NCBI RefSeq assembly: GCF_900111935.1
Contig: NZ_FOYN01000003.1
Location: 553,800 to 617,799, forward strand
DNA length: 64,000 nucleotides
Reading direction: 5' to 3'
Origin: Halorubrum sodomense
GTDB lineage: Archaea; Halobacteriota; Halobacteria; Halobacteriales; Haloferacaceae
In this document: positions 25,987 to 39,064 of the stretch, in pieces
Numbering within the stretch: position 1 is the stretch's first letter
Layout of the letters: every line of letters begins with the position of its first letter
Notes under the pieces: generated by a model
Seen by the model: the letters and a program-made list of their open reading frames with translations, nothing else
What the model was told of the DNA's origin: nothing
The model's database searches: none
Made by a program: the position numbers and the translations under genes

Positions 25987-27825
25987 ATGGAACGAGGAGA
26001 GCGGGGAGCGCCGACCGAGCGCGCGCAGAGCGAGGTGCTCGGCACGGTGCTGCTGTTGGGGTTGACGGTCGCGGTCGTCGGCACCACGGTCGCGCTCGGC
26101 GGCGCCGCGCTCGACGACGCCCAGCGGACCGCGGACCTCCAGCGCGTCGAGGGGGCGATGACGCAGCTGGACTCGAAGGCCAGCCTCGTCGCGCACGGGG
26201 GGTCGCCGTCGCAGCGGGTCCGGGTGGACGTCGGCCGGAGCGCCGGCCTCCGCGTCGACGAGGGCGCCGGCTGGCTGCGGATCGAGGTGAGCGGCGGCGA
26301 GAACGGGACGTACGCGAACCGGATCGCGCTCGGCGCGATCGTTTACGAGCGCGGCGGCAGCACCGTCGCGTATCAGGGCGGCGGCGTGTGGCGCTCGAAC
26401 GGCGACGGCGGCTCGGAGATGGTGTCGCCGCCGGAGTTCCACTACCGCGGGACCGACGGGCCCGAGACGCTCACGCTCCCGCTGGTGACGATCGAGAACG
26501 GGTCGGGGCGGCTGGGCGACACCGTTCGGATCACCGAGAGCGCGTCCGGCGCCGCGTCGGTGTTCCCGAACGCGGACTACGGGAACCCGCTCTCCGACAG
26601 CAACGTGACCGTCGAGATTACGGTTCAAAGCGAGTACGCCGACGCGTGGGGGCGGTTCTTCGAGTCGCGGACGAACGCGGCGGTGGCCGAACTCGACGAC
26701 GACCGGGTGCGGATTCTGCTCCGCACCGCGACCGTCCACCCGACGCTCAGCGCGAGCGTCTCGGCGACGGGGCGCTCCGAGCTCCAGATGGGGGACGTCG
26801 ACTGGCTGTACGCCGACAGCTACAACTCGAGTAACGGGACCTACGGCTCCCAGACGCCTGGCGACGGCGCGAGCATCCAGACCCGGGGCGACTTCGCGCT
26901 CACTAAGGGCGGCGGCGGAAACACCGAGACGGTCAGAATTCGCGGAAACCTGACGGCCGAGTCGTACAACATTCCGCCCGGACAGTCGGCCAAGCTGAAC
27001 GTCAGCGGCGAGCGCCGTATCGAGACCGCGTTCGACCAGCTCGCACCGGTCGAGGGCGGGATCAGACAGCGGATCGACGGCGTGAGAGAGCGGAACCTCG
27101 CGGACAACGCGCCGAATCAGTCGACGGGCATCGATCTGTCGGGCGACGAGACGCTGACGATCGACGAGAACACGTACGTCGACGGCGACGTCTCCGTCTC
27201 CGAGCGCGCGACGCTCCGGGTCACCGACGGAGCGACGATTCACGTCGCCGGCTCGGTGACGGTCGAGGGCGACGAGACGGCGACGCTCGACGTCGAGACC
27301 GGGAGCGGGAACGTCACGGTGCTGGTCGACGAGGGGCTCGATCTGAGCGGTAGCGCCTCGGTCAGGGCCTCCGGCGGCGGGCGTGCGGAACTGTACGTCG
27401 ACGACTCGATCACCGTTCAGGGCACGGCCTCGATAGCGACGGCTGAGAACACCCGGCTCGACATCTACAACACCGGCGATATCGACCTGAACGGACAGGT
27501 GACGGTCGCTGCCGACGGCGACGTGGCGAGCAACCTCTGGCTGTATTCGAGCGGCGACGAAGTGGAGATGGCCGGCGGGGAAGACGACGGCGACCGGATC
27601 CGGTTCACCGGCGTGTTCTACGCCCCGCAAAGCGACGTGGAACTGGAAGACGGGATGACGATCAAGGGGTCGTTCACCTTCCGGCGGTTCTCGTTCGACG
27701 ACGGCGACATCGAGATCCACTACGACGAGGCGCTGCGCACGCACCAACCGTTCGACGGCGAGACGGTCCCCGTCGTGAGCTACCTCCACGTCTCCACGCA
27801 CGGCGTGGTCGTGGAGTCGGACTGA
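25987..27825 (+). CDS. Pilin-like surface protein with a beta-helix body (DUF7289 / PilX-like)
   Basis: The 612-residue protein has a type IV pilin-like N-terminus: a charged stretch, ERAQSEVLGTVLLLG, and a hydrophobic helix to residue ~40. A beta-rich region follows, then from ~385 regular strands (GDVSVSERATLRVTDGATI, AGSVTVEGDETATLDV and more) typical of a beta-helix. The end TGVFYAPQSDVELEDG with IHYDEALR mirrors the YAPxADVxLxG...IHYDEAL ending of PilX-type minor pilins. It is convergent with the pilus operon and very likely part of the same machine. ATG 25960 is an alternative start. Confidence 0.82.
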   Translation: MERGERGAPTERAQSEVLGTVLLLGLTVAVVGTTVALGGAALDDAQRTADLQRVEGAMTQLDSKASLVAHGGSPSQRVRVDVGRSAGLRVDEGAGWLRIEVSGGENGTYANRIALGAIVYERGGSTVAYQGGGVWRSNGDGGSEMVSPPEFHYRGTDGPETLTLPLVTIENGSGRLGDTVRITESASGAASVFPNADYGNPLSDSNVTVEITVQSEYADAWGRFFESRTNAAVAELDDDRVRILLRTATVHPTLSASVSATGRSELQMGDVDWLYADSYNSSNGTYGSQTPGDGASIQTRGDFALTKGGGGNTETVRIRGNLTAESYNIPPGQSAKLNVSGERRIETAFDQLAPVEGGIRQRIDGVRERNLADNAPNQSTGIDLSGDETLTIDENTYVDGDVSVSERATLRVTDGATIHVAGSVTVEGDETATLDVETGSGNVTVLVDEGLDLSGSASVRASGGGRAELYVDDSITVQGTASIATAENTRLDIYNTGDIDLNGQVTVAADGDVASNLWLYSSGDEVEMAGGEDDGDRIRFTGVFYAPQSDVELEDGMTIKGSFTFRRFSFDDGDIEIHYDEALRTHQPFDGETVPVVSYLHVSTHGVVVESD

Positions 27826-27857
27826 GTTCGGAACCCGTCTCGCTCGCCTTCATCGGC

Positions 27858-28631
27858 TCAGTCGGAGAACTCGACGCGCGCGACGGTCCGATGGAGGACG
27901 AACCGGTCGTAGCGGTCGGCGACGAACGTTACGGCGAGGTCCGACGGTCCGTTCGTCGTCACCGAGATCCGGTCGTGGTCGGCCGCGAGGTCGCGGTAGT
28001 AACGCTCCCAGACGGTCGCCTGCGTGGAGTTAATAGTCAGCGTGACGTTCGCGGCGGCGGTCCGGTCGTCGACGGCGACCGCTCGGGCCGTGCGCTCCCC
28101 GACGACGAGAACCGTTCGCTCGCCGCTCGCCGTCTGCGGCGGACCGGAGAGCCCGTACAGTGAGTAGACGATCGTCTCGCCGACGAGCAGGTCGGGCTCT
28201 CTGATCATGACGCCGTTGTCGCCTTGCATCCGGAACACCGCGCCGTTCTCGTAGACGATGCGGGTGTCGCCGGCGCCGCGATACGTGAGCGATCCCCGTT
28301 CGGTGACCGGGCCCTCCATGCCGCTGCCGTTGAGTCGGAACTCGGACGCCGATTCGAACGCGAGCTCGCCACCGCCGAGTCGGAGTTCCGTCGCCCGGCT
28401 CGGGACGCCGTCCTGGCTGAGGTCGTTAAGATTGTCGTGGAGGACGTCGAACGCGCGCTCGACGTTGTCGTCGCGCTCGGCGAGCCGGGCGTCCTCCAGC
28501 CCGCCGAGCCCGACGGTGAACGTCACGGCGATGGTGGACGTGATCAGCGCGAACACCAGCACGAACCCGACGGTCTCGCTGACGCCGCGGTCGGCCGAGC
28601 GGAACCCGTCGCCGCGGTCGAGCGGCGTCAT
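27858..28631 (-). CDS. Pseudopilin-like membrane-anchored protein (DUF7266-like)
   Basis: The 257-residue protein begins with a short charged segment, GVSETVGFVLVF and one hydrophobic helix (~20-45), then a soluble beta-rich domain (LRLGGGELAFESASEFRLNG and others). This is the architecture of an archaeal type IV pilin or pseudopilin. It is the last gene of the operon starting at pilB3, overlapping its upstream neighbour by 4 nt (ATGA), and is convergent with the beta-helix protein gene. The family name is from memory. Confidence 0.75.
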   Translation of the reverse strand: MTPLDRGDGFRSADRGVSETVGFVLVFALITSTIAVTFTVGLGGLEDARLAERDDNVERAFDVLHDNLNDLSQDGVPSRATELRLGGGELAFESASEFRLNGSGMEGPVTERGSLTYRGAGDTRIVYENGAVFRMQGDNGVMIREPDLLVGETIVYSLYGLSGPPQTASGERTVLVVGERTARAVAVDDRTAAANVTLTINSTQATVWERYYRDLAADHDRISVTTNGPSDLAVTFVADRYDRFVLHRTVARVEFSD

Positions 28632-29113
28632 CGCTCGCTCACCACCACGGAGCCGTTCGGGCCGGCGTCCGGGTCCCAGAATATCAGGAGGTCGCCGCCG
28701 TCGACGGTCACGTTGCGGACCGCGACGCCCTCGCTCGTGCGGAACGGGACCGCGACGCTCGCGTCGGTCTGCCCGCTTTCGAGCGCGATCGTCCCCTCGG
28801 TGCCGCTCGCGGTCACGCGGATCCGATAGCCGGTTCCGGCCGCCCTGTTCGGAAGCGTCAGCGACCGGTTGACCGTGAGTTCCTCCCGCGACGACGCGCT
28901 CGCTGCGAGCCGGTCGACGGTGCCGACGTCGGCGGCGATCCGCTCGCCGACGACCGTGAGCTCACCCTGCGCCGCGCGTTCGCGCTGCGTCTCGACGAAC
29001 GACCCGCCCGCGACGAACAGCCCCGAGAGCAAGAGCGTCGAGATCGCGAGCGTCATGACGTAGCCGACGGTGACCGACACGGCGCGGTCGGAACCCTCCG
29101 ACCCGTCACGCAT
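28628..29113 (-). CDS. Small pseudopilin-like membrane protein
   Basis: The 161-residue protein has an N-terminus of SDRAVSVTVGYVMTLAISTL, a single hydrophobic helix, then a helix with ETQRERAAQGELTVVGERIA and a C-terminal beta domain ending LLIFWDPDAGPNGSVVV. The order (charged, helix, beta domain) matches pseudopilins. ATG 29113 overlaps the upstream stop by 8 nt; GTG 29122 would add three residues. It shares the minus-strand operon. Confidence 0.72.
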   Translation of the reverse strand: MRDGSEGSDRAVSVTVGYVMTLAISTLLLSGLFVAGGSFVETQRERAAQGELTVVGERIAADVGTVDRLAASASSREELTVNRSLTLPNRAAGTGYRIRVTASGTEGTIALESGQTDASVAVPFRTSEGVAVRNVTVDGGDLLIFWDPDAGPNGSVVVSER

Positions 29114-30110
29114 CGCGCTCACCCGGCGCGAGCCGGACCACGTCGCGGTAGGTCAGTTCCGGTGTCCGGTGGAGGACCTCGACCTCGACGCTGTAGATCC
29201 CCTCGACGACGTACGGCCGCGAGCCCCGGCCCGGGTTCGCGCCGTCGTCGCGGTCGTCGACGACAAGGTGGTACGTCCCCCGAGCCTCGTCGCCGTTCTC
29301 GTACCGGACATCGTACGGGTCGGTTCCGGTCTGGACGCCCTCGGCCCAGACGAGCGCGTCGAACGGCTCGCCGTTGACCGTCCCGTCGGTGAAGTCGACG
29401 GTGTGATTCCCGTCCGGACGCGGCGCGAACGTCTCGGAAGCCGCGTTCGTCCCGTTCGGCGTCTCCCGTTCCACCGCCACGGTGAGGTTGTCGCCGGTCG
29501 CGCGCCACAGCGCCGCCGACCACGTCGCGTTGGTGCCGCCGGTCGTCCCGTCGGCCACGACGGTGAACGCGCCGCCCCCCGAGTCCGACAGCGAGCCGGG
29601 AGCGACCGTCAACCGGTAGTTCCGCGTCCGAGTGGCGTTGCCCGCGACCGTCCAGTCGGCGGCCGAGCCGCCGGGTGACGTCATGTTTCGGAACCCGGTG
29701 TCGCTCTCGTTCTGGGCGACGAAGTAGCCCGTCTCGACGGTCGAGCGATTCACCGATACGTCCGCTATCACCCCGTCTCGCGCGCGCAAGTCCCCGACGG
29801 TCCGGGCGTACGTCGCCGCGCTCGCGGCGAAGTCGTCGACCACGCCGTCGGGGCTGCTCCGGTTCCGGTGTTCGCGATACATGATCCCGGCGAGGTCGTC
29901 GACCACGCCCTCGCGGAACTCGATCGCCTCCGCCCCGCCGGCGTCGGCGCCGCGCGTCGCGAGGTTCTGCGTGTAGATGACGGTGTTCAACAGGAGCACG
30001 ACCGCGACGAAGAGGACGGCGAGCGTCAGCCCGGTGATCAGGATGATCTGGGCGCGGTCCTCGTCCTCGCTCGCTCGGCCGCGACCGAGGGGAGAGTTCA
30101 CATCTGCCAT
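29106..30110 (-). CDS. Pseudopilin-like protein (DUF7261-like)
   Basis: The 334-residue protein starts with a charged segment, EDRAQIILITGLTLAVL and a hydrophobic helix to ~45 (VVLLLNTVIYTQNLATRGAD). The exported part is Thr/Asn/Gly-rich with many NxT/S sites, which suggests surface exposure and N-glycosylation, and ends in a conserved-looking VEVLHRTPELTYRDVVRLAP. It overlaps its upstream neighbour by 13 nt. Family name is from memory. Confidence 0.75.
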   Translation of the reverse strand: MADVNSPLGRGRASEDEDRAQIILITGLTLAVLFVAVVLLLNTVIYTQNLATRGADAGGAEAIEFREGVVDDLAGIMYREHRNRSSPDGVVDDFAASAATYARTVGDLRARDGVIADVSVNRSTVETGYFVAQNESDTGFRNMTSPGGSAADWTVAGNATRTRNYRLTVAPGSLSDSGGGAFTVVADGTTGGTNATWSAALWRATGDNLTVAVERETPNGTNAASETFAPRPDGNHTVDFTDGTVNGEPFDALVWAEGVQTGTDPYDVRYENGDEARGTYHLVVDDRDDGANPGRGSRPYVVEGIYSVEVEVLHRTPELTYRDVVRLAPGERDA

Positions 30111-30712
30111 GCGGTGATCCTCACCTCCACGACCGTGTACAGGACCTCCGGCGACCCCCCGGTGACCGGGGGCGCGAAGTACGACGCGGAGCCGTTCTCC
30201 GCGAGCGTGTACCCGTCGTCGACGCCGAACCGATCGTCGCCGTACAGGGCCACGCGGACGCTCGCAGTGGCCGCGTTGTCGCTGGGCGACCCCATGTCGA
30301 CCATCGCGGTGTCGCCCGTCTCGTTGCCCCCCTCCTCCGGGTAGTACACGTCGATGTCGAACGCGATCTGTCGGTCGCCGAACGCCTCCGTCAGCGGGTC
30401 GTGGAGCGGGTGCGAGTCGGGCGGCACGCCCGCGTAGGTGCCCCCGTCGTCCGCGCCGACGAACCCGCTCCCGTCTTCGTAGTACAACAGCGCCGCCTCG
30501 AGGTCGCCGCTCGCGTCTGCCGTCGAAAGCAGGTCCTGGGCCGCGATCGCCGCCTGGTTCTCGACGTGCTGGTTCGACGTGCTGGCCGAGAGCGGCGTCA
30601 CGGCCGTCGCCTGCGTCGCGAAGATGAGCCCGGTGACCAACAGCAACGACGCGGTGAACGCTTCCAGCGTGTGCGCCTGCCCCCGGTCGTCGGGGAAGCG
30701 TTCGACGAACAT
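30098..30712 (-). CDS. Pseudopilin-like protein (DUF7288-like)
   Basis: The 204-residue protein begins DDRGQAHTLEAFTASLLLV, a hydrophobic helix (~10-35), then ENQAAIAAQDLLSTADASGD, and an acidic beta-rich domain with YYPEEGGNETGD, ending in YTVVEVRITAWQM. The GQAHTLEAF cleavage-like region resembles that of archaeal class III signal peptides. It lies 1 nt after the previous gene and overlaps the next by 13 nt. Confidence 0.75.
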   Translation of the reverse strand: MFVERFPDDRGQAHTLEAFTASLLLVTGLIFATQATAVTPLSASTSNQHVENQAAIAAQDLLSTADASGDLEAALLYYEDGSGFVGADDGGTYAGVPPDSHPLHDPLTEAFGDRQIAFDIDVYYPEEGGNETGDTAMVDMGSPSDNAATASVRVALYGDDRFGVDDGYTLAENGSASYFAPPVTGGSPEVLYTVVEVRITAWQM

Positions 30713-30713
30713 C

Positions 30714-31241
30714 TCACCACACCCGCAGCGTGAGCCGGTAGGTCTCGGGCCCCCGCCGGTCCTCGGGGTCGTCGATCGTGACGATGCGACTGGCGGACGA
30801 GACGCTCTCGCTCCGCGGCGGCGCCGGCCCGGCGCGCATCGCGACCGCGGCGCCGTCGGGGTCGAGCGTCCCGACGGCCCCGCGTCGCGTGACGGTGAGG
30901 TTGAGTCCCCGGCGGTCGTCGACGCCGAGTTCGGCGTGCAGGTCGTTCGCGTTCGCCGTCCAGGTACAGTCCGACTCGTCGGCGGCCGTCTCCGGATCGG
31001 TCCCGTCGAAGAACGCGAGCGTACAGGCGTGCGACAGCGTCGCGGCCGACCCGCCGCCGGCGAGCGACGACTCCGCCAGCCGCGCGGCGCCGCGCTCGGC
31101 CACGATGACGGTCGCTCCCTCGCCGACGGCGTACGGCTCCAACAGCGACGGGACGAACGAGAAGGTGAACCCGACCGCGACGAGGAACACGGACATCCCG
31201 ACGACGAAGTCGAGGACCGTCTGCCCGCGGTCACCCGACAT
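30714..31241 (-). CDS. Pseudopilin-like protein (DUF7287-like)
   Basis: The 175-residue protein starts MSGDRGQTVLDFVVGMSVFL, a charged tip and hydrophobic helix (~8-30). Two Cys (SHACTLAFF and SDCTWTAN) may form a disulfide. The end ETYRLTLRVW is a beta-strand. The Q-T-V-L-D-F motif at the helix start resembles a prepilin signal. It overlaps the pilC3-like gene by 11 nt, so it is directly coupled to the secretion core. Confidence 0.75.
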   Translation of the reverse strand: MSGDRGQTVLDFVVGMSVFLVAVGFTFSFVPSLLEPYAVGEGATVIVAERGAARLAESSLAGGGSAATLSHACTLAFFDGTDPETAADESDCTWTANANDLHAELGVDDRRGLNLTVTRRGAVGTLDPDGAAVAMRAGPAPPRSESVSSASRIVTIDDPEDRRGPETYRLTLRVW

Positions 31242-33258
31242 AGATCCACACCCCCAGCGCCAGCGTCATCAGGATCACGGCGAACTTGACGCCGGAGATC
31301 AGCTCCGCGTCGCGGATGTAGCCGCTGATGAAGCCCGAGAGGATCGCCTGAATCGTCACCGCGTGGAAGAACAGCATCGAGAGGACGTCCGGGTCGACGC
31401 CGCCGCCGCCACCGAAGCCCGCCCCGCCCCCGCCGTCGCTCTGGCTCACCAGGTCGCCCATCACGGCGATGAACTGCGTCTGGAGGATGGCCATCACGCC
31501 GAGCAGCGTGACGTACGTCATCACGATGATCGCCACCTGCATCCGGGTCCGGGACTTGCGCTCGCGCTCGATGTCGTCCTGGTTCTCCGAGGCCTGTGCG
31601 GCGGTCGTCAACACGTCCGTGATCTGCGAGGACGCCTCCTGCGCCTCGGTGATCAGCTTCACGGTCCGGGCGAGCCGCGGGACCGCGTAGGCGTTGTTGA
31701 ACTCCACGAGGGCGTCGCGAAGACTCATCCCGTAGTTCACCTTCGCGTGGATAACCTCGAACTCCTCGGCGAGCTTCCCGGTCGACGTCTCCGAGACCGT
31801 GCGCACGGACTCGAGCAGCGTCTGCCCGGTGTCGTTCGCGGACGAGAGCTTCCGAAGCGTATCGGAGAGCTTCCCGGTCACCGCCCGACGCGAGCGCTGG
31901 TGCCATTCGTAGAAGAACCCGAGGGGGATCAGTACGACGTACACCGGGACGTACACCCACACGAACGCCGACCACACCGGACGGGCGACCCACCCGTCGA
32001 ACGTCGTCGGCGCCGAGCCGGACGCGACCGCGACGCCGACGATCGCGAGCGACGCGGGAACGGTCAACGCGAGCGTGTACGGAGGGTTCTCGCGGAGGAA
32101 GAGGTGCGGCGCGGAGAGGATCTCCACCGTCTTGTGGGTCCCTTCGCGGTCGCGGATGCGGTCGAAGACGCCGGACGTCCCGACGAACGCCTCGACGAGC
32201 CCGAAGTGGAGCAGCCCCTCTTTGCTCGTCTGTCGGAGCCGCTCGCTCCCGCCGTCGGGCTGGAGGAAGCCGTCGCCCGGGTCGTCCTGTTTCACGGTCG
32301 AGACCAACACGAGGAAGCCGACGCCGACCAGCGGGATGAGGACGTACACCGTCGCGTACAACAGCCGGTCGTCGGCCTCGCCCATCATTCCCATGATGAC
32401 GAGGATGATGATGAGAAGCAAGGGGAACAAGGAGAGCGTCATGTACATCTCGCCGAACAGCTCCAGCGTCTCCAAGGTCATCTCGCGCTCTTGTTTCGAC
32501 GTGCGGAGGTGTTTCTCCTTTTTGTCCTTCAGGAAGCCCTCCATGTCGCCGCCGGAGTTAACGATAGAGAGCATGTCGGAGAGGAACTGGGAAAGCTCGT
32601 CCGAGGGCGTCTCCATCGACTGCTGGCGGATCGCGTTGCGGTAGTCGGTGCCGAAGTACTCCGTCTCGTTGACGATGCTCTGGAACTCGCGGGACACCTC
32701 GCCGTAGGTGTCCTCCGCGGTCGCCATCGCGCGAAGGATTTCGAGCTGGTTGAGCCCGCCGACGGAGAGCGCGTACATGAACGAGACGGAGTCCGCGAGC
32801 AGGAGGTTGATCTCCCGTTTCCGCGCCGAGGCCCGCGAGTACGGGACCGCGACGACCCCGCCGAACCCGACCGCGAACCCGATCGATCCGAAGACGAGCC
32901 CGCTGAGAAGCACCGCTGTCGGGACGACGAGCGAGCGGAGCAGCTCCTGGACCGCAGGCGTCGGCGCCGGCACGCCGAGCGAGAGCGTCGACGGGTCGAT
33001 CAGCCCGAGCGAGAACACCCCGTAGCCGACCGCCGTCCCGAGCGCCCACAGCGCGCCGCCGACCGAGAGTCCGACGGCGAGCGCCAGCGAGACGTACATC
33101 TCGACCTGATCGGGCATCCGCGCTTCGACGAGTTTGCGCTCGACGTCTCCGACGAAGTCGCCGTCGGCGTCGAACAGTCGCTCGAACACCGGGTAACAGA
33201 GCCCGGCGAGGACGTTCGCGTCGACGCCGCTCTCGCCCGCGTCCAGGTCGAGGCTCAC
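31231..33258 (-). CDS. pilC3: Type IV pilus platform protein (TadC/PilC-like, type II secretion F family)
   Basis: The 675-residue polytopic protein has two F-domains. The first half has membrane segments near residues ~50-120 and VSREFQSIVNETEYFG; the second has LSDTLRKLSSANDTGQ, then VRTVSETSTGKLAEEFE, the classic F-domain helices, and more membrane segments near the C-terminus (SMLFFHAVTIQAILSGFISG). It anchors the pilus and contacts the ATPase. Its GTG start lies 28 nt after the ATPase stop. The symbol follows the usage in Haloferax for the PilB3/PilC3 system. Confidence 0.9.
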   Translation of the reverse strand: MSLDLDAGESGVDANVLAGLCYPVFERLFDADGDFVGDVERKLVEARMPDQVEMYVSLALAVGLSVGGALWALGTAVGYGVFSLGLIDPSTLSLGVPAPTPAVQELLRSLVVPTAVLLSGLVFGSIGFAVGFGGVVAVPYSRASARKREINLLLADSVSFMYALSVGGLNQLEILRAMATAEDTYGEVSREFQSIVNETEYFGTDYRNAIRQQSMETPSDELSQFLSDMLSIVNSGGDMEGFLKDKKEKHLRTSKQEREMTLETLELFGEMYMTLSLFPLLLIIILVIMGMMGEADDRLLYATVYVLIPLVGVGFLVLVSTVKQDDPGDGFLQPDGGSERLRQTSKEGLLHFGLVEAFVGTSGVFDRIRDREGTHKTVEILSAPHLFLRENPPYTLALTVPASLAIVGVAVASGSAPTTFDGWVARPVWSAFVWVYVPVYVVLIPLGFFYEWHQRSRRAVTGKLSDTLRKLSSANDTGQTLLESVRTVSETSTGKLAEEFEVIHAKVNYGMSLRDALVEFNNAYAVPRLARTVKLITEAQEASSQITDVLTTAAQASENQDDIERERKSRTRMQVAIIVMTYVTLLGVMAILQTQFIAVMGDLVSQSDGGGGAGFGGGGGVDPDVLSMLFFHAVTIQAILSGFISGYIRDAELISGVKFAVILMTLALGVWIYVG

Positions 33259-33285
33259 GGCTCGGCCCTCGCGACCGACATCGCG

Positions 33286-36200
33286 TCAGTCGTCCTCCTC
33301 GGGTTCGACGGCGTCGAACCCCCAGTCGTCGATGTCGTCGCTCGATTTGTCGTCGAAACCGCCGTCGCTCGCGCCCGTGTCCCCGTCGTCGGTCTCCGTG
33401 TCTCCATCTCCGTCAGCGCCCGCGTCGTCGACGCGGTCTCTCTCCCCGTCGTCGATGGCGCTCGACTCGTCGCCGTCGGTTTCGTCGGGCGCGTCGCTCG
33501 CGACGGGGCCGCCGGCGCTGAACCCCTCGCTCACGTCCGGCGTCGCGCTCCGATCGGGCGGTCCCGCGGGCGACGAGAGGACGTCGACCCCCTCGTCGAA
33601 CGATTCGTCGAAGTCGATGCCCTCGCCGGAGCCGTCGCCCGCCGGGACCGCCTCGGAAACCCCCTCGAAATCACCGTGCGCGGGACCGGGCGACGGGGCG
33701 GCCGAAGGGCCGGAGTCGGTCTCACCCGCGTCGATCGCGTCCGCTTCGGCCGCGTCCGACTCGGCGGCGTCCGCGTCGCCCGCGTCCGCGTCGATCGCGT
33801 CCGGCTCGGCGGCGTCCGCCTCCCGCGCCGTCTCGGCGAGGGCCTCGCGGTCGTCCGTCGGACGGGCTTCGACATCGGGGACGCGGTCCATCTCGAGGAG
33901 GGCGTTCGCGACGGAGTCCGGCACTTCGCCGCGGTACGTCTCGAAGAGGTCGTCGGCGGATTCGAGTATCTCCTTCGCCTCTCTTTTGCCCTCCTCGTCC
34001 GGCTTCGGACGGGGGACCAGCGCCTCCTTCTCGCGGTCGACGTTGATCAGCACCGACTCCATCTCGCGGAGGTCCTCAAGCGACCGCTCCAGTTCGTCGT
34101 TGGCCATCAGCGCCAGCACCGTCTCCGGGTCGTTGATGAACGCCTGGAACGTCGCCGCCACCTGCGCGTAGCTGTTGAACCCGCGGTCGATGAGGTACGC
34201 CAACACCACCCGACGCTTGCGGAGCTCCTCGTCGAGGATGGCCCGACTCCAGCCGCGGTCGAACATGATGTCCTCGAGGGTGTTCGAGTCGCCCATCTGG
34301 AGGAACTCGTCCGTCTCCGCCTGCCACTGGAACACGTCTTGAACGTTGATCTCGTCGTTCTCGGCGTCGTAGTGGTTGATCTCGGTGATCGACTTGTTCC
34401 GGCGCACCTTCTTCCCCTGAACGCGGGTCGACGTCTGGATGGAGACTAAATCGAGCGCCGTGAACATCGTCTTCGAGACGTTGATCGGGTCGGTGGTGAA
34501 CCGCTTGAGCACCTCGCCGACCGAGTCGGCGTGGAACGTCGTGTAGGTGGTGTGGCCCGTCGACATCACCTGGAAGGCGGTCCGCCCTTCCTCGCCGCGG
34601 ATCTCGCCCATCACGATGTAGTCGGGACGCTGGCGGAGCGCGGCCTCAAGCAGGTCGAACTCGTCGATGTCGCCCTTGTCGTCGTCGGAGAACGAGGGGC
34701 GCGTGACGGAGGCGATCCAGTTGCGCTGCGGGAGCTCCACCTCGCGGGTGTCCTCGATGGAAACGATCTTCGCGTTCGAGGGGATAAACAGGGAGACGGC
34801 GTTCAGGCTCGTCGTCTTCCCGGAGGCGGTGCCCCCCGCGAAGATCAGGCTCTTGTGGTTCTCGATCGAGAGCCACAGGAAGGCCATCTCGTCGAGCGAG
34901 AACGTCTTCCAGTTGATCAGGTCGATGGGGGTGAACGGGACGTCGTTGAACTGCCGGATCGTGTAGTTGGTCCCGTGGTCGGACACCTCGCGGCCGAGCG
35001 TGAGCTGGGCGCGCGAGCCGTCCGGGAGCGTGGCGTCCACCTGCGGTCTGCGCTTCGAGATCCCCTTCCCGGAGCGCTGGGCGAGCTTCACGACGAAGTC
35101 GTCGAGCTCGTCGGTGCCGTGGTGGATGTTCGTGATGATCTGCTCGTACTCCGAGTGGTAGACGAAGACGGGGGAGTTGTACCCGTCACAAGAGATGTCC
35201 TCGACGTTGATGTCGTACTTGATCGGGTCGATCCGCTCGTAGCCGATGAAGTCGCGCTTGAGGTAGTACAGCAGCTTCTCGACCTGGTGTGCGGAGAGCG
35301 TCCGGGCGTCCTCCGCGAGGACGGCCGGCTCCGGGCGGGCGCTGATCGACGGCGGGTCGGACGGCGACTCGATCGGTGGTTCGTACCCCAGCGACTCCGC
35401 GATCCGTCCCGCGATGCCCTCCGTCGGGTCGATGCCGAACCGGTCGACCAGCGTGTCCGCGAGCCCGCGATCGTCGCCGTCGTCCTCGTAGAGCCCGTAG
35501 CGGTCGAGCAGCGAGCGCGTCTCCTCGACGATCACCTCCTCGCGGAACGCCTCGTCGCCGCCCGCGATCGACTCGTCGGCGTACTTGATCGACGTGCGGA
35601 GCTTCCCGGTGAGGAACTCCGTCAGGTCCGTTTCGATCTCCGTGCGGTACGGCTGGACGGCGTAGTACTTCGCCTCGTTCTCCTTCGTCGACCGGAAGAC
35701 GATGACGAACGCGTACGGCTTGTTCACCCAGTAGCGCTCCTCCTCGCGGAAGTGCGTCTTCTTCGGCATCGGCACCGCCTTCTCGAGGTCGTACCGGTTC
35801 GTCAGGGTGGTCCGACCCTCCCCGGTCGAGAAGAACGCGTCCTCGTCGACCTCGGGATTGACGTTCACGGTTCGCTCCTCGACGAGGTCGGCGAGGTCGG
35901 CCGCGGCGCCCCCGCCCGCCCCGAGCAGCTCCTCGGTCCGGTCCGGATCGAATCCGAGCGCCTCCGTCTTGTCCTCGTGGGTGAACTCGAGCGGCACCGC
36001 CTCTCCCTCCTCGTTCTCCTCGGTCGGCGGATTCCCGTCCTCGTCGAGGAAGAACTCCTCGCGGTAGTCGTCCCACGTGTAGTACCCCTTCAACACCGGG
36101 ACCGAGTAGGGGTCGTACCGGGCCGCGCACCGGTCCCAGAGGACGCCGCCGACCGCGGCGGCGGCGCGGAACCGGTAGCCGATCTCGTCCGGGTCGAACC

Positions 36201-37245
36201 CGAGGAGTGCCGCCGGATCGAAGTCGACTCGGTCCCACTCCTCCGGGGTCGGCGCGCGCGACGGCACCGACTCGACGCCGTCCCCGAGAGCGACGACGAC
36301 CCCGGAGACGCCGCCGCGACCGACCGGACCGGTGAAAACGGTGTCCGGACGGAGATCCGCGGCGTCGGCGGAATCCACGCTGTCGGCGGAATCGCCGGAA
36401 TCGGCGGAATCGGCGGAATCGCCGGCGTCTCTCGGCCCGTCGTCATCGTCGGGGGCCGCCCCTGCCTCGTCGGGTTCTGCCGCCGAGGAGTCGCCCTCGA
36501 CGTCGGCGCCCGCTCCGTCGTCGACTTCACTGCCGTCGGCGTCTCCGGCGGCGACGGGTGCCGGCGGCGACGCCCGTCGCTCGCCGGTCGGCACGACGGC
36601 GGCGCCGTCGAGAACGACGGCGTCGGGACCGACGACGAGCGTGCCCCGATCGGGAGTGCCGTGACCGGGAACGGCGGTCTCCCCGTCGGCCTCGAAGGGT
36701 TCGTCGACGCCGGCGGCCCGGACCACCTCGTCGACGCCGTTCGGGAGGTGGCGGGCGACCGCGTCGGCCGGAACCACCGGCACGTCCGGTACGTCGGCGT
36801 ACACGCGCTCCGCGGCGTCCGCTCGGCCGTACTCCGCGAGCAGCGACCGCCAACTGTATCTGTCGGTGACGACCGGTCCGCCCTCGGTCGGTCCGTCTCT
36901 CGCGCCGAACTCCGAGGGTTCGAACGTCGGCTCGTCCGAATCGCCGGACCCCGTCTGATCTACCGGTTCCGCCTCCGCATCCGCCTCCGTCGTCACCGGG
37001 GTCTCTTCGTCCGTCGCGTCCGCTTCCTCCCTCCGCGTCTCGCCTGGTATCCCCTCTCCGTCCTCCGCCTCTGTCTCGCCTTCTGCCTCTGTCTCGCCTT
37101 CCGCCTCTGTCCCGTCTTCCGCTTCTGTCCCGCCTTCCGCTCCGTCGGAGTCCGCCGCCCTCTCCTCGGCGGACGCATCGGACGGCGAGCGCTCCCCCGC
37201 GGGTTCGGATCGGGGGGCGGAACGCTCGGCGTCCTCGTCGGTCAT
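33286..37245 (-). CDS. pilB3: Type II/IV secretion system ATPase with long acidic extensions (PilB3-like)
   Basis: The 1319-residue protein is much longer than a typical pilus ATPase of ~500-600 residues. Residues ~1-330 are an acidic, repetitive N-terminus (DGTEAEGETEAEG, SADSADSGDSAD). The core (~350-1110) carries Walker A GGTASGKTTSLN (~798), DTREVELPQRNW, Walker B region DYIVMGEIRGEEG (~875) and the His box STGHTTYTTFHAD. The C-terminal ~170 residues are again acidic (DAGDADAAESDAAEAD). It powers pilin polymerisation. It heads the operon with pilC3 and five pseudopilin-like genes. Confidence 0.92.
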   Translation of the reverse strand: MTDEDAERSAPRSEPAGERSPSDASAEERAADSDGAEGGTEAEDGTEAEGETEAEGETEAEDGEGIPGETRREEADATDEETPVTTEADAEAEPVDQTGSGDSDEPTFEPSEFGARDGPTEGGPVVTDRYSWRSLLAEYGRADAAERVYADVPDVPVVPADAVARHLPNGVDEVVRAAGVDEPFEADGETAVPGHGTPDRGTLVVGPDAVVLDGAAVVPTGERRASPPAPVAAGDADGSEVDDGAGADVEGDSSAAEPDEAGAAPDDDDGPRDAGDSADSADSGDSADSVDSADAADLRPDTVFTGPVGRGGVSGVVVALGDGVESVPSRAPTPEEWDRVDFDPAALLGFDPDEIGYRFRAAAAVGGVLWDRCAARYDPYSVPVLKGYYTWDDYREEFFLDEDGNPPTEENEEGEAVPLEFTHEDKTEALGFDPDRTEELLGAGGGAAADLADLVEERTVNVNPEVDEDAFFSTGEGRTTLTNRYDLEKAVPMPKKTHFREEERYWVNKPYAFVIVFRSTKENEAKYYAVQPYRTEIETDLTEFLTGKLRTSIKYADESIAGGDEAFREEVIVEETRSLLDRYGLYEDDGDDRGLADTLVDRFGIDPTEGIAGRIAESLGYEPPIESPSDPPSISARPEPAVLAEDARTLSAHQVEKLLYYLKRDFIGYERIDPIKYDINVEDISCDGYNSPVFVYHSEYEQIITNIHHGTDELDDFVVKLAQRSGKGISKRRPQVDATLPDGSRAQLTLGREVSDHGTNYTIRQFNDVPFTPIDLINWKTFSLDEMAFLWLSIENHKSLIFAGGTASGKTTSLNAVSLFIPSNAKIVSIEDTREVELPQRNWIASVTRPSFSDDDKGDIDEFDLLEAALRQRPDYIVMGEIRGEEGRTAFQVMSTGHTTYTTFHADSVGEVLKRFTTDPINVSKTMFTALDLVSIQTSTRVQGKKVRRNKSITEINHYDAENDEINVQDVFQWQAETDEFLQMGDSNTLEDIMFDRGWSRAILDEELRKRRVVLAYLIDRGFNSYAQVAATFQAFINDPETVLALMANDELERSLEDLREMESVLINVDREKEALVPRPKPDEEGKREAKEILESADDLFETYRGEVPDSVANALLEMDRVPDVEARPTDDREALAETAREADAAEPDAIDADAGDADAAESDAAEADAIDAGETDSGPSAAPSPGPAHGDFEGVSEAVPAGDGSGEGIDFDESFDEGVDVLSSPAGPPDRSATPDVSEGFSAGGPVASDAPDETDGDESSAIDDGERDRVDDAGADGDGDTETDDGDTGASDGGFDDKSSDDIDDWGFDAVEPEEDD
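37067..37139. repeat. Tandem ~18-bp repeats in the 5' part of pilB3
   Basis: About four copies of a unit based on GCCTCTGTCTCGCCTTC encode GTEAE/GETEAE repeats in the acidic N-terminus of the ATPase. A second low-complexity patch of 9-bp repeats (TCGGCGGAA) at ~36360-36430 encodes SADSADSGD. Both keep the frame. Confidence 0.7.
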
Positions 37246-38640: not shown

Positions 38641-38664
38641 ACTGCTCACTTCGTTCGCAGGTAG

Positions 38665-38737
38665 CGGGCACGGCGGGATTCGAACCCGCGATCGAGAGGT
38701 TAGGAACCTCTCGCCCTGTCCGCTAGGCCACGCGCCC
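38665..38737 (-). tRNA. trnR-CCT: tRNA-Arg (anticodon CCT)
   Basis: 73 nt. The acceptor stem GGGCGCG pairs with CGTGCCC (one G-U) and the discriminator is G. The D-arm region TGGCCTAGCGGACAGGGC is followed by the anticodon stem-loop AGAGG-TTCCTAA-CCTCT with anticodon CCT, then a T-arm with GGTTCGAATCC. CCA is not encoded. It reads the AGG codon. A T-rich stretch (TTTTCTT at ~38750) lies just upstream on the same strand, after tatA. Confidence 0.93.
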
Positions 38738-38788: not shown

Positions 38789-39064
38789 TTACGCGCTGGT
38801 TTCCTTGTCGGTCTCGGTCTCGAGGTCGTCGAGGTCGTCGTCCTCGTCGTCGAGCGTCGAGTCCGCCGTCTCGCTCTCCTGCATGTCTTTCAGTTCCTCT
38901 TCGACCTGTTCGCGGCCCTTCTTGAACTCTCCCATCGCCTGGCCGGTCGACCGAGCGAGCTTCGGAATCTTGTTCGCCCCGAACAGCAGGACCAACACGA
39001 GCAGGATGATGAGGAGCTCCGGCCCCGCCGGAATGCCGCCGATCAGTGGTGTCGCAGTTACCAT
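38789..39064 (-). CDS. tatA: Sec-independent protein translocase TatA
   Basis: The 91-residue protein has an N-terminal membrane helix (ELLIILLVLVLLFGANKIP), an amphipathic helix (KLARSTGQAMGEFKKG), and a strongly acidic tail (DDEDDDLDDLETE). The FGANKIPKLARS hinge is diagnostic for TatA/E. Haloarchaea export most secreted proteins through Tat, and several such substrates lie in this window. A TATA box ~30 nt upstream supports ATG 39064. Confidence 0.94.
   Translation of the reverse strand: MVTATPLIGGIPAGPELLIILLVLVLLFGANKIPKLARSTGQAMGEFKKGREQVEEELKDMQESETADSTLDDEDDDLDDLETETDKETSA

Follow-up and report, generated by a model that had tools for sequence, protein, structure and literature searches.

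Predicted class III prepilins beside a PilB4-type machine in Halorubrum sodomense, at least two of which appear to carry inserted adhesion-like modules

Do genes that carry only DUF family labels belong to the type IV pilus machine beside which they lie, and what would they build? The question is raised by a locus at 25987-37245 of a 64,000-nucleotide (nt) stretch of Halorubrum sodomense DNA (GCF_900111935.1, NZ_FOYN01000003.1:553,800-617,799, forward strand; this whole stretch is called the window below), in which an assembly ATPase, a membrane platform and five small genes lie on the minus strand and a sixth, larger gene converges on them. Judged by its architecture, the machine is of the long, haloarchaea-specific PilB4/PilC4 type, with Haloferax massiliensis standing in for Haloferax volcanii in the comparison. 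In our models and alignments at least two of the six DUF proteins look like pilins into which large adhesion-like modules have been inserted. The whole is best explained by a heteromeric minor-pilin complex of a PilB4/PilC4-type system that would display adhesive modules at the filament tip, a reading to which we give a probability of about 0.65. Open reading frames (ORFs) and junctions were taken directly from the sequence and family names from Pfam scans; the features are listed here, with prepilins and modules as predicted and a slash in each prepilin site.

33286..37245, minus strand: secretion/assembly ATPase of PilB4 type, 1319 amino acids (aa); Pfam T2SSE 8e-31, PilB3_C 9e-10
31231..33258, minus strand: membrane platform of PilC4/TadC type, 675 aa, GTG start; Pfam T2SSF 3e-28, in two stretches
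30714..31241, minus strand: gene 1, DUF7287 prepilin, 175 aa, site RG/QTVLD; Pfam 8e-42
30098..30712, minus strand: gene 2, DUF7288 prepilin, 204 aa, site RG/QAHTLE; Pfam 7e-54
29106..30110, minus strand: gene 3, DUF7261 modular prepilin, 334 aa, site RA/QIILI, +5 not acidic; Pfam 2e-10
29193..29735, minus strand: beta-sandwich module inserted in gene 3, mature residues 106-286, tentatively concanavalin A (ConA)-like; structural alignment
28628..29122, minus strand: gene 4, DUF7266 prepilin, 164 aa, site RA/VSVTV, PilA-like N-terminus; Pfam 7e-26
27858..28631, minus strand: gene 5, short DUF7289 prepilin, 257 aa, site RG/VSETV; Pfam 6e-49
25987..27825, plus strand: gene 6, long DUF7289-DUF7305 modular prepilin, 612 aa, site RA/QSEVL; Pfam DUF7289 3e-31, DUF7305 7e-31
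26734..27729, plus strand: beta-solenoid module of gene 6, mature residues 237-568; structural alignment

The genes are tightly packed. ATPase and platform are 27 nt apart, the platform overlaps gene 1 by 11 nt, a gap of 1 nt separates genes 1 and 2, and genes 2 and 3 overlap by 13 nt; gene 3 overlaps gene 4 by 8 nt if the latter starts at the ATG at 29113 (161 aa) or by 17 nt if it starts at the GTG at 29122 (164 aa), genes 4 and 5 overlap by 4 nt, and the 3' ends of genes 5 and 6 lie 32 nt apart. The first-pass annotation had described this same arrangement of ATPase, platform, five small minus-strand genes and a convergent sixth, and had read the junctions correctly as 4, 8, 13, 1 and 11 nt, the 1 being a gap and not an overlap. 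It had also called the locus complete, which goes too far: the only A24-type prepilin peptidase found in the genome is a single copy on contig C9, away from the locus, and the major pilin is unproven.

The first step is to ask whether the six proteins are pilins at all. As a pattern for class III prepilin sites we required [KR][GA][ALIFQMVED][ILMVTASQH] followed by an uncharged hydrophobic stretch. PibD-type sites had been proposed as a check, and all six non-core proteins carry the strict pattern (RG/QT, RG/QA, RA/QI, RA/VS, RG/VS and RA/QS for genes 1-6), as compared with 1 of the 169 other ORFs of at least 100 aa in the 64-kb window, which alone served as background. FlaFind-positive proteins number 42-47 per genome in H. 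volcanii (PMC6491452, PMC4371748), or about 1% of genes by our own estimate, and at that rate the chance of sites in six out of six proteins at one locus is negligible. The exported domains, previously described as Thr/Asn-rich, show only a mild enrichment, with a Thr/Asn/Ser fraction of just 18-22%. Across some 110 haloarchaeal PilB4-type loci (31 fetched by genome and 80 named, plus the window, with a few genomes duplicated) the site is kept in 95-100% of orthologs for five of the families and in 82% for the sixth. It is present in 110/110 DUF7287 orthologs, with Gln+1 and Asp+5 invariant, and in 108/111 DUF7288 orthologs, where Gln+1 and Glu+6 are constant in all 108 with a strict site. DUF7261 keeps it in 89/91 cases, with Gln+1 and never an acidic residue at +5; DUF7266 in 104/109, with Val+1 Ser+2; the short DUF7289 protein of gene 5 in 103/105 (Val-Ser-Glu/Asp); and the long DUF7289 protein of gene 6 in 62/76 (Gln-Ser-Glu).

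Gene order is conserved to a similar degree. DUF7288 was found in 138 of the 145 genomes of the class, and over the compared loci the order ATPase, platform, DUF7287, DUF7288, DUF7261, DUF7266, DUF7289 is nearly fixed: 42 loci have exactly the order of the window including the convergent sixth gene, 27 have the same order without it, and in 10 the last two genes of the window order are flipped together. Some pilin sets have no ATPase beside them (loci L053, L062, L066, L088 and the second set of L087), so the sets move as a unit. At locus L087 (genome G137) a second pilin set lies about 7 kb from the first; it lacks an ATPase and platform of its own and includes two copies of the long DUF7289 gene. 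Conserved class III sites in all six proteins and the near-invariant gene order together argue that the DUF genes encode pilins of the adjacent machine and are not bystanders, much as the first-pass annotation had inferred. The contrary idea, that they are merely co-located with the ATPase, is hardly credible: the roles of the DUF genes do rest on sequence and models, and nothing that we computed speaks in favour of mere co-location, whereas the six class III sites, the conservation at residue level, the overlapping genes and the class-wide synteny all speak against it.

Which machine would these pilins serve? The labels pilB3 and pilC3 given initially are wrong. According to passages of Makarova et al. 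2016 (PMC4858521) the PilB3 locus of H. volcanii encodes no pilins, and the PilB4 ATPase HVO_1160 has Halobacteria-specific extra N- and C-terminal domains; the PilB3/PilC3 machine of the adhesion pilus (HVO_1034/HVO_1033; HVO_1034 is the ATPase deleted in a biofilm-negative H. volcanii strain, PMC6985049) has a homologous platform and ATPase, the latter compact. The window locus has neither a compact ATPase nor a pilin-free surrounding: its ATPase extends 645 residues N-terminally and 259 C-terminally beyond the catalytic core, six prepilin genes lie beside it, and in 200/200 bootstrap trees it groups with other long forms, apart from compact PilB and ArlI. We therefore rejected the PilB3/PilC3 identity. 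A compact paralog of 617 aa is encoded in the same genome (C8:909929-911092) and another in H. massiliensis; the cores of the compact and window-type ATPases are about 50% identical, and no class III ORFs were found around these compact PilB loci (L073 and L079, of this genome and H. massiliensis). The extended and compact loci of H. massiliensis are 117 kb apart, as expected for HVO_1160 and HVO_1034. Orthologs of the extended ATPase are present in Haloferax and throughout the class, viral contigs scanned for it yielded no relative, and the platform aligns with 12 haloarchaeal relatives at a mean column identity of 72%. The closest described system is indeed H. volcanii PilB4/PilC4 (HVO_1160; the clade 2 type of Fig. 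4B in Makarova et al. 2016), which likewise has a long extended ATPase, a TadC-type platform and a pilin set of its own. That set is proposed there, in the passages on PilB4, as structural components, so that in substance the assignment of pilins to PilB4 loci was already known; most Haloferax PilB4 loci differ from ours in that their sixth gene has DUF7308 in place of the DUF7305 solenoid.

Does this machine make a pilus? In H. volcanii pilB4-C4 is transcribed, and a structure made of two FlaFind-positive pilins of relatively large size was proposed as its product (PMC4371748); PilB4 protein was detected in one medium only (PMC7305310); these expression data fit a conditional PilB4 system. 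H. volcanii without PilB3-C3 shows no visible pili despite transcription of pilB4-C4 (PMC4371748), hence PilB4 may not make long pili, and the locus might instead build a short pseudopilus or a membrane-held adhesin or secretion device with no long pilus exposed. We consider this improbable, as expression depends on conditions and the right one was perhaps missed.

The third gene gives the first indication of what the pilins may carry. In both proteins modelled with AlphaFold2, those of genes 3 and 6, an N-terminal helix of more than 50 residues is followed by a beta domain. The gene 3 model (predicted local distance difference test, pLDDT, 91.5) has helices at 2-62 and 70-90 and then beta structure, of which residues 106-286 align to ConA-like sandwiches with VIA-align Z values of 8-10, the usual noise being Z 7-8. 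PilC of Streptococcus sanguinis (7oa8) is among the top rows (Z 9.0, 3.1 A over 137 residues, model span 58-312); a Foldseek search with the model gave no match at E 0.001 or better. Mature DUF7261 proteins fall into two length classes: nine loci, several from Natrialbaceae, encode a form of 117-156 aa, and the rest one of 249-426 aa. A profile of the short forms matches the long ones at the N-terminus, and its C-terminal part matches at the extreme C-terminus in 56 of 58 cases. Bimodal lengths and matches at both ends support the view that in long DUF7261 an insert of some 150-180 residues interrupts a minimal pilin ahead of its last hairpin; models and comparative genomics suggest that the minimal form would be a long helix plus a terminal beta-hairpin, and the insert a beta-sandwich.

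The sixth gene provides the larger module. Its model (pLDDT 87.9) consists of an N-terminal helix (2-56), the DUF7289 domain and a beta-solenoid, which aligns to the ice-binding protein FfIBP with Z 15.8 (2.9 A over 196 residues) and to the Thermus tip pilin ComZ with Z 13.1 (4.0 A over 238 residues); as modelled, it has the discontinuous beta-solenoid fold of the DUF3494/ComZ type. In ComZ of Thermus thermophilus, likewise a pilin with a large FfIBP-like solenoid toward the C-terminal end of its pilin fold, the solenoid is inserted between the last two strands of the pilin (PMC6561018), while in gene 6 the pilin domain is DUF7289 and the module is exchanged in relatives. The match to ComZ raises the idea of a competence-type, DNA-uptake filament with gene 6 as the DNA receptor. 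We hold this to be even more doubtful than the pseudopilus: the best matches are ice-binding proteins and adhesins such as tapirin match too, so the fold does not fix the ligand, and ComZ-like DNA binding is putative here; relatives have DUF7308 or vWA in place of the module; and no competence genes were seen among the few flanking ORFs checked.

On the DUF7289 stem of the relatives we found the solenoid 33 times, DUF7308 29 times, an unnamed module five times and vWA three times, the vWA of Haloferax mucosum and H. elongans retaining the DESGS metal-site motif. Behind the solenoid and behind the DUF7308 module alike comes a closing strand of the type YLHVSxNxVxVE, which is not obvious behind vWA. 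The evidence that the last strand of gene 5 also closes gene 6 is only suggestive, with C-terminal best matches in 27 of 72 cases. Frequent swapping of modules in place was considered and rejected; the module tree requires just about four changes, from which the modules appear to be mostly lineage-specific. In H. mucosum and H. elongans the DUF7266 pilin is enlarged to 415 aa with a PKD domain (L099:13933-15177, L102:13912-15156). Together with the vWA in their sixth gene, and unlike other Haloferax, this suggests a transferred pilin set, with which the vWA form probably arrived. Another modular pilin pair may lie next to an 804-aa PilB of H. massiliensis, at L080:3734-7639: the two large class III proteins there, 566 and 724 aa long as scanned, have weak DUF7289 and bacterial Ig-like matches. 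A separate module that is absent or exchanged in relatives, as expected of a modular pilin, is thus seen both in the DUF7261 forms and in the four module classes on the DUF7289 stem.

Genes 5 and 6 themselves represent two old paralogous lineages with a common DUF7289 domain (profile match of 99.8% over 200 columns, and tree). The pair is inverted as a unit in Halobellus, Halogeometricum, Halopenitus and relatives (L104-L107, L109-L111, L126, L072, L085, L089), where the long modular pilin lies inside the operon and the short one is convergent, both genes being kept. We considered a switchable inversion of the convergent paralogs and a domain swap between them; in the tree the inversion of the whole pair is fixed in the Halobellus/Halogeometricum and Halopenitus lineages, and both readings were rejected. 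Gene 6 is not beside the locus in ten Natrialbaceae loci (L136, L146, L159, L162, L164, L166, L167, L168, L170, L171), part of which have the DUF7261 insert while others lack it, and is missing beside certain Halorubrum loci. Outside the pilus locus, beyond the ATPase, lie a tRNA-Arg (CCT) gene at 38664-38737 and a TatA-like gene at 38789-39064, both on the minus strand and seemingly unrelated to it.

If the six are pilins, do they form the tip or the shaft? All of them could be structural subunits along a heteropolymeric filament, with one, most likely the small DUF7266 protein, as the major pilin. DUF7266 is the smallest of the set and has a PilA-like V-S N-terminus; for PilB4, passages of Makarova et al. 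2016 (PMC4858521) predict a major pilin of its own, related to PilA (arCOG03926), and treat the other pilins as structural. We regard this as unlikely, though less so than the other alternatives, as the gene 6 solenoid would have too much bulk to pack regularly, as was argued for ComZ (PMC6561018), and as the absence of gene 6 and of the DUF7261 module in certain lineages would be odd for a shaft. For the minor-pilin complex, module bulk as in ComZ and the precedent of the S. sanguinis PilA-B-C complex (PMC9934059, PMC8179133) point to the tip. The six prepilins would, as their families suggest, be cleaved by the single A24-type peptidase encoded elsewhere and extruded by the PilB4/PilC4 ATPase and platform; they would assemble as the heteromeric starting complex of the filament, and the bulky modules would be displayed at its tip, where their ligand may be a surface, a glycan, a protein or DNA. 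DUF7266 or PilA-type pilins encoded elsewhere would build the shaft. Six Pilin_N matches lie elsewhere in this genome; one of these, or else DUF7266, may be the major pilin.

The comparison with bacterial minor pilins, proposed in the first-pass annotation, holds and can be sharpened, in that two of the six resemble modular pilins; of the structural models called for, those of genes 3 and 6 show this likeness, and the model evidence is limited to these two. S. sanguinis PilC (a ConA-like lectin) and PilB (vWA) likewise bear a large module on a small pilin, vWA being found in certain gene 6 relatives, but the archaeal pilins are of class III, the DUF7261 module sits inside the pilin core and is not appended, and its ligand is putative. 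The GspH/I/J/K and PilHIJK tip complexes also consist of several distinct pilins encoded together, one of them large and without an acidic +5; here there are five core pilins, not four, no sequence relationship was detected, and the complex itself is a prediction. Pfam scans gave no TadE/TadG or GspH-K match at E 1, Tad minor pilins being sought no further. Sequence-profile searches of the PDB with DUF7287, DUF7288, DUF7266, the short DUF7289 protein and gene 6 matched no pilin; the few hits obtained (a designed coiled coil, a cohesin protein and others) look accidental.

Several points count against the tip complex. No sequence homology of the six prepilins to bacterial GspH/I/J/K was found, and the acidic +5 residue is kept only by DUF7287. 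The ConA-like match of gene 3 rests on Z 9-10, slightly above noise, and the fold name is tentative. Given its absence beside the Natrialbaceae loci examined and beside some Halorubrum loci, gene 6 is not universally required. Finally, cleavage, expression, filament and tip location are themselves predictions from sequence and models.

Taken together, pilins in PilB4 loci were already known, while the modular architecture of DUF7261 and of the sixth protein appears to be new. In the main text of Makarova et al. 2016 we found no account of inserted modules, and the literature searched, which excluded preprints and most subscription papers, yielded no case of adhesion-type domains being inserted or exchanged in an archaeal minor pilin. 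The survey of modular pilins in InterPro that has been published relied on the motif IPR012902 and refers to bacteria; with a bacterial pilin motif it would have overlooked archaeal cases. Whether haloarchaeal PilB4 pili in general end in a conserved tip complex of several pilins that serves as carrier of exchangeable adhesive modules (ConA-like sandwich, beta-solenoid, DUF7308, vWA, PKD), an archaeal counterpart of bacterial modular pilins that this survey would have overlooked, seems to us about evenly balanced. Most haloarchaeal pilins have no known function and the PilB4 pilus has no assigned role. The families DUF7261, DUF7266, DUF7287, DUF7288, DUF7289, DUF7305 and DUF7308 now receive a testable one. 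If two subunits are indeed tip adhesins with swappable modules, the ligand of the pilus could be sought directly by expressing the modules, and it would seem that archaea and bacteria retarget their type IV filaments alike, by inserting binding domains into minor pilins.

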